Shown: positions 16,022 to 21,892 of the stretch, piece by piece
Layout: every line of letters begins with the position of its first letter
Numbering within the stretch: the first letter of the stretch is position 1
Source of the DNA: Mycobacterium pseudokansasii
Lineage (GTDB): Bacteria > Actinomycetota > Actinomycetes > Mycobacteriales > Mycobacteriaceae
Assembly: GCF_900566075.1 (NCBI RefSeq)
Contig: NZ_UPHU01000001.1
Span: 3,410,001 to 3,474,000, forward strand
Direction of reading: 5' to 3'
Length of the DNA: 64,000 bases
Made by a program: the position numbers and the translations under genes
Notes under the pieces: generated by a model
Database searches by the model: none
The model's input: the letters and a program-made list of their open reading frames with translations, nothing else
Told to the model about the DNA's origin: nothing

Positions 16022-16169
16022 ACTTTGACGCGGTTGATCCCAATCAGCTCACCGGTGGGCCGAACAGCTCACGAAATCAGAGTCGAAGGACCCTACGCCG
16101 ATTCCCGCTCGATGGATACGGTCTGGCATGTCGGAGTCCACCGACAGTAACGAGGGGAAGGCTGTCACA

Positions 16170-16427
16170 ATGCCCGTCATCAATAGCTACAACGTCGAAG
16201 CGATGCTGGATTCGATGGCGACCGTGTCGTATGGCGTTATCCACTGGTTCGATGACGAGCGCGGATTCGGATTCGTCCACCCCGCAGACGGTGATCGCGA
16301 CGTCTTCATCGACTCCTCCGAGATCGTTGATTGGCCTGCCGGCGGCGTTCATGAAGGTCAGCACGTGAGCTACCAAACCGGGGGCACACGGCACTGGCCC
16401 TTGGCGCAAGCCGTACACATCCTCTAA
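16170..16427 (+). CDS. cold-shock-domain protein
   Basis: An 85-residue protein with an N-terminal extension followed by an OB-fold cold-shock domain. GVIHWFDDERGFGFVHPADG carries the RNP1-like aromatic motif, and DRDVFIDSSEI the RNP2-like one. Canonical Csp proteins read K-G-F-G-F-I; here the site is R-G-F-G-F-V, still compatible with single-stranded nucleic acid binding. An ATG at 16128 would add 14 residues; AGGGGAAGG upstream of 16170 favours the shorter form. It is divergent from a usp gene and convergent with the FNT-channel gene. Confidence 0.75.
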   Translation: MPVINSYNVEAMLDSMATVSYGVIHWFDDERGFGFVHPADGDRDVFIDSSEIVDWPAGGVHEGQHVSYQTGGTRHWPLAQAVHIL

Positions 16428-16438
16428 AGGCGCGCCGG

Positions 16439-17314
16439 CTACGGCTCCCGCGGCTGAAGCCGCGCGATGACGTAAAACGGCAGCGCCACAAAAACCGTGC
16501 CGCCGACCAGATTGCCGAGGCTGGTAACGCAGATATTGGTGACCAAGCCGTGAGTCCCCCAACCCCAGCTGATCCCGCAGTGTGGGGCATCCGGGTGAAA
16601 CGCATTGAGCAGCAACGGCAGTCCCAGGAACCCGACATTGGCCACGACGTGCTGATCGCTGCCGATCACGAATGCGAAGGGCCCGTAGAACGCGAAGCCC
16701 ATCCGCGCGACGTCGCTGCGCGCCTTGTAATACATGCACATGGCGGTTTGCAGGAACCAGGTGCACAGCACCGCCAGCAGGAAGGCGGTCCACAAGGGCT
16801 GGCCGGCTTTCTGGGCGCCGACGACTGCCGCACGCGTGGCGAAGGCACCCAGATACGGACCCCCGGCCGCGGCGCAGACGGCGACGAACACCAGTGCACC
16901 AACGATATTGCCGCTCAGTCCGATAAGCAGCAGCTGTAGATAGCAGCTGATGCGCATGCGTCCCTGCAACACCGCGAAGAAGCCGGCTGCCATGTCGGCG
17001 GTGATCAGTGATGCCCCTGACACGAGGATGAGAACAAAAGACATGCCGAACGCCAGGCCCATCAGCAGGCTGGCGATACCAGGCGTGCCGACCCCGGTGC
17101 TGACGACCAACGACAACAACGCGCCGAAACCCACCATCGACCCGCCGACCAGTGAGCGGATCAGGAAAGCCCATGGATGGGCGGATTTCTCGAGTGCCAT
17201 GTCCGCTATTCGGGTCACCATGGCCGGGACACCGAGTGGTTCGAACGGATCACCGGCCCGGCGATCATCGGACAACGGGCCCACGAGATCTGGGCCCAGG
17301 GCAAGCTGGGACAT
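16439..17314 (-). CDS. formate/nitrite transporter (FNT) family channel
   Basis: 291 residues with six to seven membrane segments, typical of FocA/NirC/HSC pentameric channels for small monovalent anions (formate, nitrite, hydrosulfide). The conserved central His occurs in DQHVVANVGFLGL, and the C-terminal GNLVGGTVFVALPFYVI is a family signature. It is the last gene of a tight minus-strand operon with cyanase and an ECF sigma factor; only 38 bases separate it from the flavin reductase. The anion is unknown: nitrite, formate or hydrosulfide by family, while cyanate or bicarbonate would be a guess from context. Confidence 0.85.
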   Translation of the reverse strand: MSQLALGPDLVGPLSDDRRAGDPFEPLGVPAMVTRIADMALEKSAHPWAFLIRSLVGGSMVGFGALLSLVVSTGVGTPGIASLLMGLAFGMSFVLILVSGASLITADMAAGFFAVLQGRMRISCYLQLLLIGLSGNIVGALVFVAVCAAAGGPYLGAFATRAAVVGAQKAGQPLWTAFLLAVLCTWFLQTAMCMYYKARSDVARMGFAFYGPFAFVIGSDQHVVANVGFLGLPLLLNAFHPDAPHCGISWGWGTHGLVTNICVTSLGNLVGGTVFVALPFYVIARLQPREP

Positions 17315-17352
17315 GGTGCGCCTATCGGTAAGTATGGAAAGTGTTGCGTCGC

Positions 17353-17913
17353 TTAAGAAGCCACCGGGTGGACGGTGTCTGCCCAATCGTGCATCCGTCC
17401 CGAGTAGTAGAGCAGCGGCAGCCCGCCGGCGCGGCGCACGGCGCAGGCGCGGATGAGCAGGATGACGTGGTCGCCCGCGTCGTAGATCCGGTCGATGAAG
17501 CCGCTTACCGAGGCGGCCGCGCCGACAAGAACTGGACAACCGCAGTCATCGGTGTCGAATGCGACTCCCTCGAAGCGGTCGTCGACCTTGCTGGCGAAGC
17601 GGCGCGCCAGGCTCGCCTGGTCGTTCGCCAACACGTTGACGGCCACGGAGCTGCCGATGCGGAACGCCGGCAGGCTGCCCGCGCTGCGCGCCACACACTG
17701 CAGCAACAGCGGCGGGTCCAGGGACACCGAGGCAAACGAGCTGATGGTCATGCCGACCGATCGGTCGCCCAGTCGGGTGGTCAGAACGGTGACGCCGGAG
17801 GGAAAGGCGCCCATAGCGTTTCGCATCGATGTGGCGTCAACCGGGCCCCCCAGTGTCCAAACCTGGTCCGGGCGGCGATCCGGTTGCGACGAGTGTGCAC
17901 TGGCGTTCGTCAT
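17353..17913 (-). CDS. flavin reductase-like FMN-binding protein
   Basis: 186 residues, one flavin-reductase-like domain of the HpaC/DszD type. Landmarks are FPSGVTVLTTRLGDRSVGMT, ISSFASVSLDPPLLLQCVAR and NVLANDQASLARRFASK. Such enzymes use NAD(P)H to make free FMNH2 or FADH2 for a partner monooxygenase. The ATG overlaps the stop of the anti-sigma gene (ATGA). The acyl-CoA-dehydrogenase-like flavoprotein in the same operon is the obvious candidate partner. Confidence 0.85.
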   Translation of the reverse strand: MTNASAHSSQPDRRPDQVWTLGGPVDATSMRNAMGAFPSGVTVLTTRLGDRSVGMTISSFASVSLDPPLLLQCVARSAGSLPAFRIGSSVAVNVLANDQASLARRFASKVDDRFEGVAFDTDDCGCPVLVGAAASVSGFIDRIYDAGDHVILLIRACAVRRAGGLPLLYYSGRMHDWADTVHPVAS

Positions 17914-18176
17914 TCTTGGCCTTTCCTGAGGGTGTTGATCGTCTTGATAACCCCCGCGATGTGCTCGTCGCTGAGCTTTTCCCCGTCGAATACATGATTG
18001 AGCAGAACTTTGAGGTCCAGCATTTGCTGCAGATACACCAGGCATGGCGGGCACTCGTCGATGTGTTTGGCCACGATCGCTCCCCAGTCCTGCGGGTCCG
18101 AGTCCACCAGGTCGTCGACGAGTCGGACGAAATCAACGCAGTCGACGGCGGGGACCGTGTTGTCGTAGACGGTCAT
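17910..18176 (-). CDS. zinc-binding anti-sigma factor (ZAS type)
   Basis: An 88-residue protein with the H-x3-C-x2-C signature (His38, Cys42, Cys45 in KHIDECPPC) and an upstream Cys13. This is the zinc anti-sigma arrangement of RsrA/RshA-type proteins that release their sigma factor when thiols are oxidised. It overlaps the sigma gene by 4 bases, as expected for a sigma/anti-sigma pair. No membrane segment, so it is a soluble sensor. Confidence 0.85.
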   Translation of the reverse strand: MTVYDNTVPAVDCVDFVRLVDDLVDSDPQDWGAIVAKHIDECPPCLVYLQQMLDLKVLLNHVFDGEKLSDEHIAGVIKTINTLRKGQE

Positions 18177-18787
18177 CGTTGGTACCGCTTTTCCAGTTCA
18201 TTTCGGAGGTTTGCCCGGGCACGGTAGAGCAGGGCACGTTGCGCCTCGGCGGACAGCTCGAGAATCTCGGACGCCTCTTCGGCGGAGGTACCGACCAGGT
18301 CGCGCAGGATTACCAGCTGTCGCTGCCGCGGCGGCAGCGTATCCAGCGCAGCGCGCACCTGCTCGACGAGTTCCCTTGCAACGGTTCGGTCCTCGGGGAG
18401 GAACCGCCGCGACGGCGGCACGCTCCAGTGCCCGGCGTCGGGGTGGCCGGCCGGGTGCATCCGGTCCGACAGCGGGTCGGCATCGTCGGTGGCCAGCACC
18501 TCATGTTCGCGGATCCGGGACTCGCGGCGCCGGTGCCGCGACGCGGTGTTCTTGACGATCCCGAACAACCAGGTGGCCACCAACGAGCGGCCCTCGAAAG
18601 AGGCCGACGACTGCATCACCTGAACCCATGCTTCTTGTACCGCTTCTTCGGCCACCGTCGGCGAGTTCACCATTGTGCAAGCAAAACTCACCATTTGGCG
18701 GTGATAGTCGCGCACCAAGCCGGCCAGCGGAACTCCGCCGACCGTGTGCTCGGATGCGGATCCGGGTGGGACCGCGACCGGGGTCAT
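18173..18787 (-). CDS. ECF sigma factor
   Basis: A 204-residue extracytoplasmic-function sigma factor. Region 2 covers about residues 20-95 (LVRDYHRQMVSFACTMV, EEAVQEAWVQVMQ, TWLFGIVKNTASRHRR). Region 4 covers about 140-200 (LPPRQRQLVILRDLVGTS, LELSAEAQRALLYRARANL). The linker is Pro/His-rich. It starts 20 bases after the acyl-CoA-dehydrogenase-like gene and is followed by its cognate zinc anti-sigma factor. It probably drives its own operon under oxidative or electrophile stress; no promoter could be assigned with confidence. Confidence 0.9.
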   Translation of the reverse strand: MTPVAVPPGSASEHTVGGVPLAGLVRDYHRQMVSFACTMVNSPTVAEEAVQEAWVQVMQSSASFEGRSLVATWLFGIVKNTASRHRRRESRIREHEVLATDDADPLSDRMHPAGHPDAGHWSVPPSRRFLPEDRTVARELVEQVRAALDTLPPRQRQLVILRDLVGTSAEEASEILELSAEAQRALLYRARANLRNELEKRYQR

Positions 18788-18806
18788 CGTCGACCCGAGC
18801 GGTCAC

Positions 18807-19874
18807 TCAACGGCATCCCCCCAGTTCCCACCGCAGCTGCGCCTCCGACGGCGACTGCACGGGCAGGAATGCGGCTTCCCGGTATCGGCGGCTCGCCGGC
18901 GTCCTGCTGGCATATCCCTTGCCGCCGGCCGTACGAATCTCGAGCGCGGCGCTGGCACTGGCGATTTCGGCCGCGCTGAGGCGTAGCGAGAGCAACTCCT
19001 TCTTGCTCGGCGGTTGCCCGCCGCCGACCGACGCGGCCACGCTGGCCAAGGTGGTCTCGGCCAGCGCGAGCTTTCCGGCGATCAGGTCGACGTCGGGGGC
19101 GAACACCGAATTCACTCCGGTGAGACCGATCCTGCATTGCGTCAGTGTGGTCTTGGCCAGCCCGAGGCACATTGCCGACTGCAGTACCAGGAAGGCGGGG
19201 CGGACCGCGTCGAGAAACCCGTCGAAGTCGGCGGACAGCACCTGCTCATCGCCGACGTACACATCGGTCAACTCCAGATACGACGAGGCCGTGCTGCCCA
19301 TCGCCAAGAGTTCGAAGTGGTCACCGATGGTGATACCCGGTGTGCTCAACGGCACCGCCACGATCAATTTGTCGCCACGTTCGGTGCGCGCCGCGGTCAC
19401 CAAGACCGAGTCGTGGTACAGGTTGCTGGCCCATCTGATCGACCCGCTCAGCTGGTAGCCGCCCGGGACGGCTGCGGCGGTGAGCTCGAGGCTGCCGCAG
19501 CCGGCCGCGTCTTTGAAGGCTGCCGCCATTCCGGTGATGCCCAGCGCGGTGCCGGCCAGCAGCGGCTGGACCGCGACCATGCTGTATTCCGTTGCGGCGG
19601 TGAGTAAGTACTCGATCGCCATTCGGTTGGCCCACACGCAGAACCCGGTGCTCATGCACTCGCCGGAGATCATTCGGATCACCTGGGCCATCTGTGGCAG
19701 CCGTCCGTCGATATTGCCGGGAGCGCCGAGCCCGAGCAGTCCGACTGTCCCCAGGCCCGGAAAGCTGCGGCGGGCGGTGTCGTCTCCGCAGTCCAGCACC
19801 CCGGCGTACGCGCGGATCTCTGCCAGCAGCTCCGAATCGAGCAAGTCGATCGCGGCGTCAATGGTCGCGGTCAC
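18807..19874 (-). CDS. acyl-CoA-dehydrogenase-like flavoprotein, possible FMNH2-dependent monooxygenase
   Basis: 355 residues with the acyl-CoA dehydrogenase fold: N-terminal helical part, a beta domain around GGYQLSGSIRWASN, and a C-terminal helical bundle (GGKGYASRTPASRRYREA). The segment that normally carries catalytic Glu (E-G-T type) reads VQSPSEAQL, so dehydrogenation is doubtful. The same fold serves in FMNH2-dependent monooxygenases such as DszC and SfnB. The flavin reductase gene in this operon supports that reading, which remains inference. The GTG start overlaps the cynS stop (GTGA) with AGGAGG 8 bases upstream. Confidence 0.75.
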   Translation of the reverse strand: MTATIDAAIDLLDSELLAEIRAYAGVLDCGDDTARRSFPGLGTVGLLGLGAPGNIDGRLPQMAQVIRMISGECMSTGFCVWANRMAIEYLLTAATEYSMVAVQPLLAGTALGITGMAAAFKDAAGCGSLELTAAAVPGGYQLSGSIRWASNLYHDSVLVTAARTERGDKLIVAVPLSTPGITIGDHFELLAMGSTASSYLELTDVYVGDEQVLSADFDGFLDAVRPAFLVLQSAMCLGLAKTTLTQCRIGLTGVNSVFAPDVDLIAGKLALAETTLASVAASVGGGQPPSKKELLSLRLSAAEIASASAALEIRTAGGKGYASRTPASRRYREAAFLPVQSPSEAQLRWELGGCR

Positions 19875-20347
19875 GACATGACCTCCTGTTCCGTGTTGTT
19901 CCATGTGTAGTCGAGAAACTTGCCGTCGAAGGTCACAATCACCCGATCACCTTGCGGATCCGGACGACGCTGCACACTCATCCGGAAGTTGATGGCGCTC
20001 ATAATCCCGTCGCCGAACTCCTCGGCAATCAGCTCCTTGAGTGCGGGCCCATAGAGCGACAGCGCCTCACGGAACCGGTAGATCGTCGGATCCGCCGACG
20101 CCGATTCGTCGGATCCCCGGTAGGGCGTCAACTGCAGAGCGGCGACCGCGTCGTCGTCGAGGTCGAGCAGTGCTACGACTGTCGCGGCATCGTCAGCCGA
20201 CAGCGGGTGCTGGCCGAGGAGCGCCGCTACCGTCCACACCCGGTCCTTGCCGATCGCGTCGGCGATCTTGGTCCAGCTCAATCCCTTTGCCATCCGGGCC
20301 AGCTTGATGGCCTCGGCGAGCTTTAGCCTGGTCGCGTTGTACGTCAC
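19871..20347 (-). CDS. cynS: cyanate hydratase (cyanase)
   Basis: A 158-residue cyanase. The N-terminal helix-turn-helix-like domain (LAEAIKLARMAKGLSWTKIA) precedes the catalytic segment with Arg91, Glu94 and Ser117, equivalent to E. coli Arg96, Glu99 and Ser122 (DPTIYRFREAL, then FGDGIMSAINF). The enzyme, a decamer in E. coli, converts cyanate plus bicarbonate to ammonia and CO2. M. tuberculosis has no cyanase that I know of. It sits between an OsmC-like gene (10 bases away) and the acyl-CoA-dehydrogenase-like gene (4-base overlap), in an operon with a sigma/anti-sigma pair. Confidence 0.93.
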   Translation of the reverse strand: MTYNATRLKLAEAIKLARMAKGLSWTKIADAIGKDRVWTVAALLGQHPLSADDAATVVALLDLDDDAVAALQLTPYRGSDESASADPTIYRFREALSLYGPALKELIAEEFGDGIMSAINFRMSVQRRPDPQGDRVIVTFDGKFLDYTWNNTEQEVMS

Positions 20348-20357
20348 GTCACGATGC

Positions 20358-20882
20358 CTAGTCGATGGTCAGGGTCGAGTCGACGGTGGCCGGGCGGCGG
20401 AACGTGTTCACCACGGGCGACCAGGCGATCGCGTTGTCGTGGATCTCCCGCAACGTCTCGTCGTCGGCATCTCCGGCCAGGGTGACGCGGCAGCGCACCG
20501 CGGTGAAGCCGAGGATCTTGCCTGCCGGGGTGTCGCCGACGCCCCACACGGCGGAGATGTCGATGTCACCTTCCATCTCGACCTCGATCTTGGTCAGGGT
20601 CACGCCACGGTGGGTGGCGTTGGCCAGCAGGCCCACCGAGATGCACGATCCCAGGGCCGCCAAAGTCGTCTCCGAGGGGTTGGGCGCCGAGTCGTCACCC
20701 AGCAGCGCGGGGGGTTCGCCGACCAGCATGGGCGCCAGGTCGCGCACGTAGGTCATGTTGCGAAAGCCGCTTTCACACACCGTCTTGGCTTTCAGCGTCT
20801 TCTTGCCGGTGCTGGGGTCGGTCTTGGCGCTGCACGACAGTCGGTCCAGGCCTTCGGCATCGATCACAAGCACGTCGGTCAT
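20358..20882 (-). CDS. OsmC/Ohr-family protein
   Basis: 174 residues of the OsmC-like fold. Candidate peroxidatic Cys80 lies in the family motif NPSETTLAALGSC, and a second Cys131 (AVRCRV) could resolve it. OsmC/Ohr proteins reduce organic hydroperoxides with thiols. Cys spacing is shorter than in E. coli OsmC, as in the broader OsmC-like group. GGAGG 7 bases upstream supports the ATG. This is the first gene of the seven-gene minus-strand operon with cyanase and the ECF sigma factor, consistent with a thiol/oxidant stress theme. Confidence 0.85.
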   Translation of the reverse strand: MTDVLVIDAEGLDRLSCSAKTDPSTGKKTLKAKTVCESGFRNMTYVRDLAPMLVGEPPALLGDDSAPNPSETTLAALGSCISVGLLANATHRGVTLTKIEVEMEGDIDISAVWGVGDTPAGKILGFTAVRCRVTLAGDADDETLREIHDNAIAWSPVVNTFRRPATVDSTLTID

Positions 20883-20960
20883 GTCGAGTCCTCCGTTTCT
20901 TTCCAAGCGAATAGTTTTCGGCGTCAAGCTTTAGTGCTCGGCAGACGCGCCGACGTGACG

Positions 20961-20986
20961 ACGATCGGCAGTCTTTTACACGATCG
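20961..20986. promoter_or_regulatory. direct repeat in the promoter region of the cynS operon
   Basis: ACGATCG occurs at 20961 and again at 20980 (19-base period), about 80-100 bases before the first gene of the operon. It could be a regulator or sigma recognition site. On the coding strand TGTCGATC and CGTCGTC lie about 20 bases apart, loosely like an ECF promoter. Weak evidence. Confidence 0.25.
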
Positions 20987-21055: not shown

Positions 21056-21892
21056 CTAGGCGGCAGGCTGGGTAACGAAGTCGATGAGTTCTTCGACCCG
21101 GCTGATCAGCGCGGGCTCCAGATCATTCCAGTCGCGGACCGTCGAACGGATTCGCCGCCACGCCGTGGCAATGTCCGCCTGGTCGGCGTGCGGCCAGCCC
21201 AGTGCCTGACAGACTCCGTGCTTCCACTCGATGTGCCGGGGTACGCTCGGCCACACCTTGAGGCCGAGCCGGTGCGGTTTGACGGCCTGCCAGATGTCGA
21301 CATAAGGGTGACCGACGACCAGGGTGTCCGAGCCAGCCGGCCCCTGACGCACCGCGTCGGCAATGCGAGCCTCTTTCGACCCGGGGACTAGGTGGTCCAC
21401 AAGAACGCCGAGTCGACAGCGCGGCCCGGGCCGGAAATCGGCGACGATGCGCACCAGGTCGTCGACGCCGCCGAGGTGCTCCACCACAACGCCTTCGATG
21501 CGCAGGTCCTCCCCCCAGACCTGTGCGATGAGTTCGGCGTCGTGACGGCCCTCGACGTAGATCCGGCTGGCACGGGCAACCCGAGCGCGGGCGCCGGGGA
21601 CCGCGACCGACCCGGATGCCGTTCGCTTCGGCGTGACCGGCGCCGGGCGGCGCGGCGCAGTGAGGATTACCGGTCGACCGTCGATGAGGTAACCCGGCCC
21701 GAGCGGGAAACCGCGGGTCTTACCGTGGCGGTCTTCGAGGTCGACGCGGCCGTATTCGACTCGGACCACGGCGCCGACATAGCCGGTTTGGGCGTCCTCG
21801 ACCACCATGCCGATCTCGACCGGATGCTCAACCGATCGCGGCGTGCGCCGCAGTCCCCCGGACAAGACGTCGCTGCCATAACGATCCACCAC
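21056..21892 (-). CDS. DUF3097 family protein (Rv2033c-like)
   Basis: A 278-residue protein I recognise as DUF3097, conserved across Actinobacteria; length and position fit M. tuberculosis Rv2033c. The N-terminus has a small beta-rich region (VGAVVRVEYGRVDLEDRHG). The middle resembles a TOPRIM-like nucleotide fold (RIYVEGRHDAELIAQVWGED, then VLVDHLVPGSKEARIA, with acidic residues). A nucleic-acid role is possible but unproven. Divergent from the decayed ArsR gene. Confidence 0.75.
   Translation of the reverse strand: MVDRYGSDVLSGGLRRTPRSVEHPVEIGMVVEDAQTGYVGAVVRVEYGRVDLEDRHGKTRGFPLGPGYLIDGRPVILTAPRRPAPVTPKRTASGSVAVPGARARVARASRIYVEGRHDAELIAQVWGEDLRIEGVVVEHLGGVDDLVRIVADFRPGPRCRLGVLVDHLVPGSKEARIADAVRQGPAGSDTLVVGHPYVDIWQAVKPHRLGLKVWPSVPRHIEWKHGVCQALGWPHADQADIATAWRRIRSTVRDWNDLEPALISRVEELIDFVTQPAA

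Follow-up and report, generated by a model that had tools for sequence, protein, structure and literature searches.

We analyzed a 64,000-nucleotide stretch of the Mycobacterium pseudokansasii genome (contig NZ_UPHU01000001.1, positions 3,410,001 to 3,474,000; hereafter the window, whose numbering is used throughout) and found that it carries a real and conserved operon of seven minus-strand genes (16439-20882). In order of transcription these encode an OsmC-family protein, a cyanase, a flavoprotein, an extracytoplasmic function (ECF) sigma factor, an anti-sigma factor, a flavin reductase and an FNT-family anion channel, with gene junctions of +10, -4, +19, -4, -4 and +38 bases. An initial annotation made from the sequence alone had described seven minus-strand genes joined by 4-base overlaps or short gaps, with the sigma pair inside the operon; the same order and place were recovered, and the sigma and anti-sigma genes sit between those of the flavoprotein and the flavin reductase. 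These are known families in a new arrangement, together with an unassigned branch of flavoproteins that lack the catalytic glutamate of acyl-CoA dehydrogenases (Glu-less). The explanation that we favor, tentatively, is that of a self-regulated catabolic or detoxification operon in which the Glu-less flavoprotein would act as a two-component oxygenase of a small nitrogen- or sulfur-containing compound, with cyanate being formed in the lineages under sigma control.

The initial annotation had proposed a search for this gene order across Actinobacteria, and the order does recur in relatives: the complete seven-gene set is present at nine named Mycobacterium loci and one Amycolatopsis locus, which excludes a chance arrangement. 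Gene content was counted at 80 named loci, chosen as the best-matching 80 among 271, which biases the counts toward near relatives. Presence was scored by tblastn at E 1e-3 (1e-12 for the ECF gene) inside the fetched flanks, where diverged or distant genes escape detection and contig ends truncate some of the loci. Counted in this way, OsmC accompanies the flavoprotein at 78 of the 80 loci (L142 and L168 gave no OsmC match), the sigma/anti-sigma pair is found at 66, FNT at 55 and cyanase at 36. The 65 mycobacterial loci hold OsmC in 64 cases, the sigma pair in 62, FNT in 51, cyanase in 34 and flavin reductase in 9; the corresponding figures for the 15 non-mycobacterial loci are 14, 4, 4, 2 and 12. 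All 13 near neighbourhoods (L056-L068) have OsmC and the flavoprotein, whereas 12 have the sigma pair, 5 have cyanase and 3 have flavin reductase. A quick tree, which carries long-branch warnings, was built from 80 flavoproteins (that of the window and those of 79 loci, without L170); on it, the minimum number of presence changes is 12 for cyanase, 8 for FNT, 5 for flavin reductase and 3 for the sigma pair. Because of these presence counts and tree changes, the operon core is OsmC plus the flavoprotein, and the flavin reductase is the usual third member outside Mycobacterium, where it adjoins the flavoprotein in six genera. Of 298 genomes sampled from the order, 31 have the flavoprotein family (E 1e-30), as do 8 of 396 sampled across the phylum (E 1e-25), and the OsmC-linked flavoprotein clade (at least 57% identity to that of the window) occurs in 65 of 248 sampled mycobacterial genomes; the flavoproteins of M. 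gastri and M. innocens are 97% identical to that of the window. At L068 the OsmC protein is shortened, with its middle part missing, and in M. lepraemurium (L170) the flavoprotein and sigma genes match in pieces only.

A redox-sensing sigma factor encoded in the operon itself probably turns it on, as judged from the anti-sigma ligands and from a comparative promoter pattern. The sigma factor (204 aa, 18173-18787) matches sigma-70 region 2 (PF04542) at 54.7 bits, region 4 (PF08281) at 45.7 bits and TIGR02937 at 90.9 bits relative to a cut-off of 42.9. The anti-sigma factor (88 aa, 17910-18176) matches no Pfam or NCBIfam model and, by phmmer, no PDB sequence, and is assigned as a CHCC-type zinc protein (Cys plus H-x3-C-x2-C) by its position and its ligand pattern C13, H38, C42 and C45, which is invariant in all 67 sequences without stops. 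The RsrA zinc ligands are Cys11, His37, Cys41 and Cys44, with Cys11 needed for redox sensing, according to PMC4960319. The operon pair thus resembles sigma-R/RsrA in its CHCC pattern, in near-identical ligand spacing and in having the sigma gene directly before the anti-sigma gene, but differs in lacking a match to any PDB chain, in its CGTCAC/CACTAA promoter and in showing no sign of a wider regulon. This predicted promoter, CGTCAC-N17/18-CACTAA with minor variants, lies upstream of OsmC in 64 of 67 loci that have the sigma pair and in none of 8 without it, as counted on the same loci from which the pattern was drawn and leaving out four loci (L169, L171, L172 and L173) where no OsmC start was found. 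Shuffled or resampled upstream sets gave 0.1 occurrences, and the spacer is 18 bases in 51 loci and 17 in 13, though 14 to 19 were permitted. In the window the predicted element (minus strand, 20931-20960) has its -35 CGTCAC at 20960-20955, an 18-base spacer and its -10 CACTAA at 20936-20931, and is located 48 bases before the OsmC ATG. The CHCC ligands and this footprint bear out the redox-type sigma/anti-sigma control that the initial annotation had inferred. One genome (G023) has a second strict promoter copy (G023:C4:117821-117850) that lies some 370 bases further upstream.

The core also occurs under a different regulator. Three loci without the ECF gene (L156, L157, L164) have a nearby TetR gene that shares 46-57% identity with the TetR adjoining a second kind of cassette, which comprises an SCO4226-like (DUF4242) gene, a Glu-less flavoprotein, an NrtA-like ATP-binding cassette (ABC) importer and, often, a divergent TetR gene (L070-L073, L075-L077, L080, L086, L089, L092, L168 and L266-L268; at L267 the permease gene is beyond the contig end). 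With the pattern used, a palindrome of the AGACAGA-N4-TCTGTCT type was found upstream of OsmC in L156 and L164 and in the intergenic regions of 6 of 8 SCO4226-type cassettes. The presence of TetR in ECF-less loci with the same core indicates that the regulator was exchanged while OsmC and the flavoprotein stayed together. An AGAC...GTCT palindrome is common to the TetR-controlled cassettes of both kinds, the TetR intergenic regions being those of L070-L073, L077 and L092.

The flavoprotein (355 aa from a GTG start, 18807-19874, with an in-frame ATG at 19904) has an acyl-CoA dehydrogenase fold by alignments, fold matches and an AlphaFold2 model (pLDDT 91.9, pTM 0.92), and its Pfam match to the acyl-CoA dehydrogenase middle domain is weak (23.1 bits, below the cut-off of 33.3). 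Alignment to human short-chain acyl-CoA dehydrogenase (SCAD) puts Ser351 (365-aa numbering), within QSPSE, at the position of the catalytic Glu, just where the initial annotation had expected that motif. The YEG motif is replaced by QSP or QAP in all 38 flavoproteins compared, with Ser at the Glu position in 26 and Ala in 12. We therefore rejected a normal acyl-CoA dehydrogenase, and with the catalytic Glu missing in 38 of 38 sequences ordinary acyl-CoA dehydrogenation by this protein is unlikely. As to an alternative Glu of the isovaleryl-CoA dehydrogenase (IVD) type, the window flavoprotein has no acidic residue in 233-250, a region where the local alignment is uncertain.

Group D two-component flavin monooxygenases combine this fold and the loss of the catalytic Glu with a dedicated flavin reductase. 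The operon flavin reductase (HpaC/HsaB-like by its PDB relatives, 186 aa, 17353-17913; PF01613 117.1 relative to 27 bits, no NCBIfam equivalog cut-off reached) is encoded in the window, at 12 of the 15 non-mycobacterial named loci and at 9 of the 65 mycobacterial ones. Relative to the monooxygenases HsaA, DszC, SfnB and HadA, the operon flavoprotein is alike in fold superfamily, in the missing Glu and in the recurrent flavin reductase, but it scores below every cut-off tried, is nearer to SCAD/IVD, carries QSP/QAP and does not always have a reductase in place. The initial annotation had likened the pair to DszC/SfnB-type monooxygenases; the loss of Glu and the reductase in six non-Mycobacterium genera uphold a part of that proposal, whereas family cut-offs and fold do not, and membership of the DszC, SfnB or HsaA families was rejected with scores far below their cut-offs. 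Group D monooxygenases were not among the 50 VIA fold matches listed, which carries no weight.

Several observations weigh against an oxygenase that forms cyanate under its own sigma switch. The flavoprotein reached no monooxygenase cut-off in NCBIfam (SfnB 32.3 relative to 430.9 bits, HsaA 21.9 to 450, HPA hydroxylase oxygenase component 18.1 to 650), its model is nearest in fold to SCAD/IVD with HsaA at Foldseek rank 41, and superfamily members without Glu include non-oxygenases, as described in PMC8360864. A Glu occurs at window Met245 (365-aa numbering), near but not at the alternative base position, in 7 of 27 sequences of one alignment (A2), all from Corynebacterium, where it may serve as a substitute base. 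The flavin reductase is not in place at 56 of 65 mycobacterial loci, and cyanase is missing in cis from 44 of the 80 named loci. Cyanase was not detected in 10 of 11 ECF-less non-mycobacterial relatives, which indicates that cyanate is no universal product, and the statistic for cyanase co-occurrence given below ignores kinship. With regard to the switch, the promoter pattern was counted on its own source loci, it was not found at three of the four non-mycobacterial sigma-pair loci (Nesterenkonia, Rhodococcus and Actinacidiphila), and a genome-wide scan gave 3 promoter sites relative to 2 in a reversed control and hence no regulon beyond the operon.

The strongest competing explanation, possible though in our judgment doubtful, is that the flavoprotein is an oxygen-independent Glu-less enzyme of the acyl-CoA type. 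It might be a desulfinase or a decarboxylating dehydrogenase that works on a CoA ester or a different carrier, with the reductase keeping its flavin reduced or serving something else. The SCAD/IVD-like fold speaks for this, as do partial, low-scoring NCBIfam matches to 3-sulfinopropanoyl-CoA desulfinase (22.5 relative to 600 bits) and acryloyl-CoA reductase (25.2 to 640) and the fact that known Glu-less branches catalyze such reactions (PMC8360864). However, the branches named in that source retain the final Gly (AGG, SGG, YGG, GAG, GGG); specifically, 3-sulfinopropionyl-CoA desulfinase and benzylmalonyl-CoA dehydrogenase IaaF have AGG or GGG for YEG and CoA-ester substrates, whereas the operon flavoproteins have QSP or QAP. 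In addition, the SCAD alignment has a two-residue gap at the helix that holds SCAD's conserved Arg, the operon has no CoA ligase or transferase, and the flavin reductase is the usual neighbour outside Mycobacterium.

The first gene of the operon encodes the OsmC-family protein (174 aa, 20358-20882; PF02566 76.7 relative to 27.5 bits). Its C80, the first catalytic Cys, is kept in 79 of 79 aligned rows, and all 79 have Ser155 at the position of the second, where a profile alignment sets it facing the second Cys of 9wo1; Trp154 was rejected for this position by the same alignment. The two catalytic cysteines of OsmC/Ohr thiol peroxidases are therefore not both present, with other cysteines (C17, C36, C131) occurring in most sequences. 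The nearest solved relative, the uncharacterised protein 2opl, likewise has SPV at the second-Cys position. This protein and the flavoprotein could be read as a redox-stress unit that guards against peroxides or electrophiles, to which the genes for cyanase, FNT and reductase are loosely tied, the promoter being all that they share with it. The redox-type anti-sigma factor and the changes in presence of these three genes on the tree (at least 12, 8 and 5, respectively) agree with this idea, which we nonetheless regard as improbable given that OsmC, flavoprotein and reductase occur together in six non-Mycobacterium genera, mostly without the sigma pair, and that core and channel remain together where TetR replaces the sigma pair (L156, L157, L164).

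The cyanase (CynS, 158 aa, 19871-20347) exceeds the equivalog cut-off of TIGR00673 (155 relative to 113.3 bits; PF02560 107.7 bits). The initial annotation had called cyanase rare in mycobacteria, a view that is ruled out by its presence in 202 of 248 sampled mycobacterial genomes. It is not the operon core either, being in cis at 36 of 80 named loci with at least 12 presence changes on the tree. A cyanase is present in every one of the 65 genomes that carry the OsmC-linked flavoprotein clade and in 137 of the 183 that do not (Fisher p 3e-7, kinship not corrected). Cyanase position in 14 mycobacterial genomes shows that all 8 without an operon cyanase have one elsewhere, and that the operon copy is the sole cyanase in 2 of the remaining 6. 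Outside Mycobacterium, cyanase is found in 4 of 4 genomes with a sigma-pair locus and in 1 of 11 without the sigma pair, where absences are provisional since the completeness of these 15 genomes is unstated. This indicates that cyanase goes with the sigma-controlled form, and the core also exists without cyanase. Cyanate is likely a product in sigma-controlled lineages, as suggested by this co-occurrence. The initial annotation had envisaged a redox-sensed pathway that oxidizes a small N/S compound and releases cyanate; an operon that is most likely self-regulated by a redox-type switch is supported, whereas cyanate as a general product does not, given the ECF-less relatives noted above. The genome has a second cyanase gene (L093:5751-6209; G000:C1 near 972984), which is 55% identical to that of the operon, and its 3.2-kb locus (L001) holds none of the seven operon genes.

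In M. smegmatis the neighbouring formamidase, cynS and FNT genes (MSMEG_5358-5360) are induced together in nitrogen starvation, a nitrogen-scavenging set that resembles our operon in having cyanase beside FNT but whose transcripts are GlnR-dependent, as reported in PMC4222082. Cyanase transcripts of M. abscessus rise beside P. aeruginosa, and the authors relate this rise to HCN (PMC12098619).

The FNT channel (291 aa, 16439-17314; PF01226 146.6 relative to 34.6 bits) did not reach the NCBIfam cut-offs of TIGR00790, FocA or NirC. Some relatives have an NrtA/CmpA-like ABC importer, which follows the flavin reductase in Rhodococcus sp. HNM0569 and C. halotolerans, is divergent to the core in three other Corynebacterium and lies about 4 kb away in C. 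lemuris. The Rhodococcus binding protein matches NrtC (E 8e-51) and NrtA (2e-35) over most of its length, its ATPase is just above the ntrCD cut-off (292.9 relative to 291.8) and its permease just below that of ntrB (202.8 relative to 209.05), with a rhodanese-domain gene coming after the importer genes. NrtA-like importers carry nitrate, nitrite, bicarbonate or cyanate. An H-x-C-C motif is present in 18 of 18 aligned binding proteins, from both locus kinds, where NrtC has QPKK; it occurs in 6 of 18 NMT1_2 proteins of relatives, 3 of the 6 being beside a flavoprotein. The importer and FNT neighbours, along with the M. smegmatis and M. abscessus cyanase data, favor a small N/S anion or C1-N compound as substrate; thiocyanate is a guess. 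Among 23 distant OsmC-less loci (L070-L092), 11 have the SCO4226-like gene, flavoprotein and ABC importer, 8 are of the ftsX/smpB kind and 4 are neither. In the eight ftsX/smpB genomes (L078, L079, L082-L084, L087, L088, L090), all from a single family of the order, ftsX and smpB flank the flavoprotein gene. At three further loci (L269, L270, L271) an H-x-C-C ABC importer without the flavoprotein is divergent to a gene for a DUF3556 membrane protein, as assigned by Pfam at L269.

Under the two-component oxygenase explanation that we favor, the RsrA-like CHCC anti-sigma factor would hold the ECF sigma factor until thiol oxidation or a reactive pathway compound frees it, as its ligand pattern suggests. 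The freed sigma factor would then transcribe its own operon from CGTCAC-N17/18-CACTAA, a step for which comparative support is strong. The Glu-less flavoprotein would carry out the core reaction with reduced flavin supplied by the operon reductase, or by some other reductase at loci that lack this gene, and the single-catalytic-Cys OsmC protein might conceivably handle peroxide, sulfenyl or persulfide species. Judging from neighbouring genes, the substrate would be a small N- and/or S-containing anion or a C1-N compound, with the FNT channel, or the NrtA/CmpA-like ABC importer in some relatives, moving substrate or product. Where a lineage has the sigma pair, cyanate would arise from the pathway or its substrate, and cyanase in cis or trans would convert it to ammonia and CO2. 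A more far-reaching version, which we consider quite unlikely, would have the QSP/QAP flavoproteins form a new two-component oxygenase branch that, with the single-Cys OsmC, oxidizes a soft anion (thiocyanate, cyanide or isocyanide) to cyanate; the CHCC-gated sigma factor would sense the reactive intermediate, FNT and H-x-C-C NrtA-like importers would be interchangeable, and the whole would amount to redox-switched N and S scavenging in many mycobacteria.

Upstream of the operon is a DUF3097 gene (21056-21892), and a cold-shock-domain gene (plus strand, 16128-16427) lies just below the FNT gene, towards a Usp gene. At L065, and in part at L060, L062 and L066, genes for an FTR1 permease, an imelysin and a DyP peroxidase, which together resemble efeUOB, are directly upstream of OsmC. 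PHROGs gave nothing informative for three operon proteins. The open literature, with subscription literature mostly outside our scope, held no work joining thiocyanate, cyanase and OsmC, or any three of OsmC, flavin reductase, ECF sigma factor and cyanase. By title, none of the open papers pairing cyanase with acyl-CoA dehydrogenase concerns this operon, and nothing on M. kansasii and cyanate is related to it.

Overall, these results define a regulatory unit, composed of a sigma factor, an anti-sigma factor and a predicted promoter, and a Glu-less flavoprotein family in mycobacteria and other Actinobacteria. If the flavoprotein is indeed an oxygenase, then this operon would represent a further source of cyanate, and the widespread mycobacterial cyanases would gain a partner pathway.

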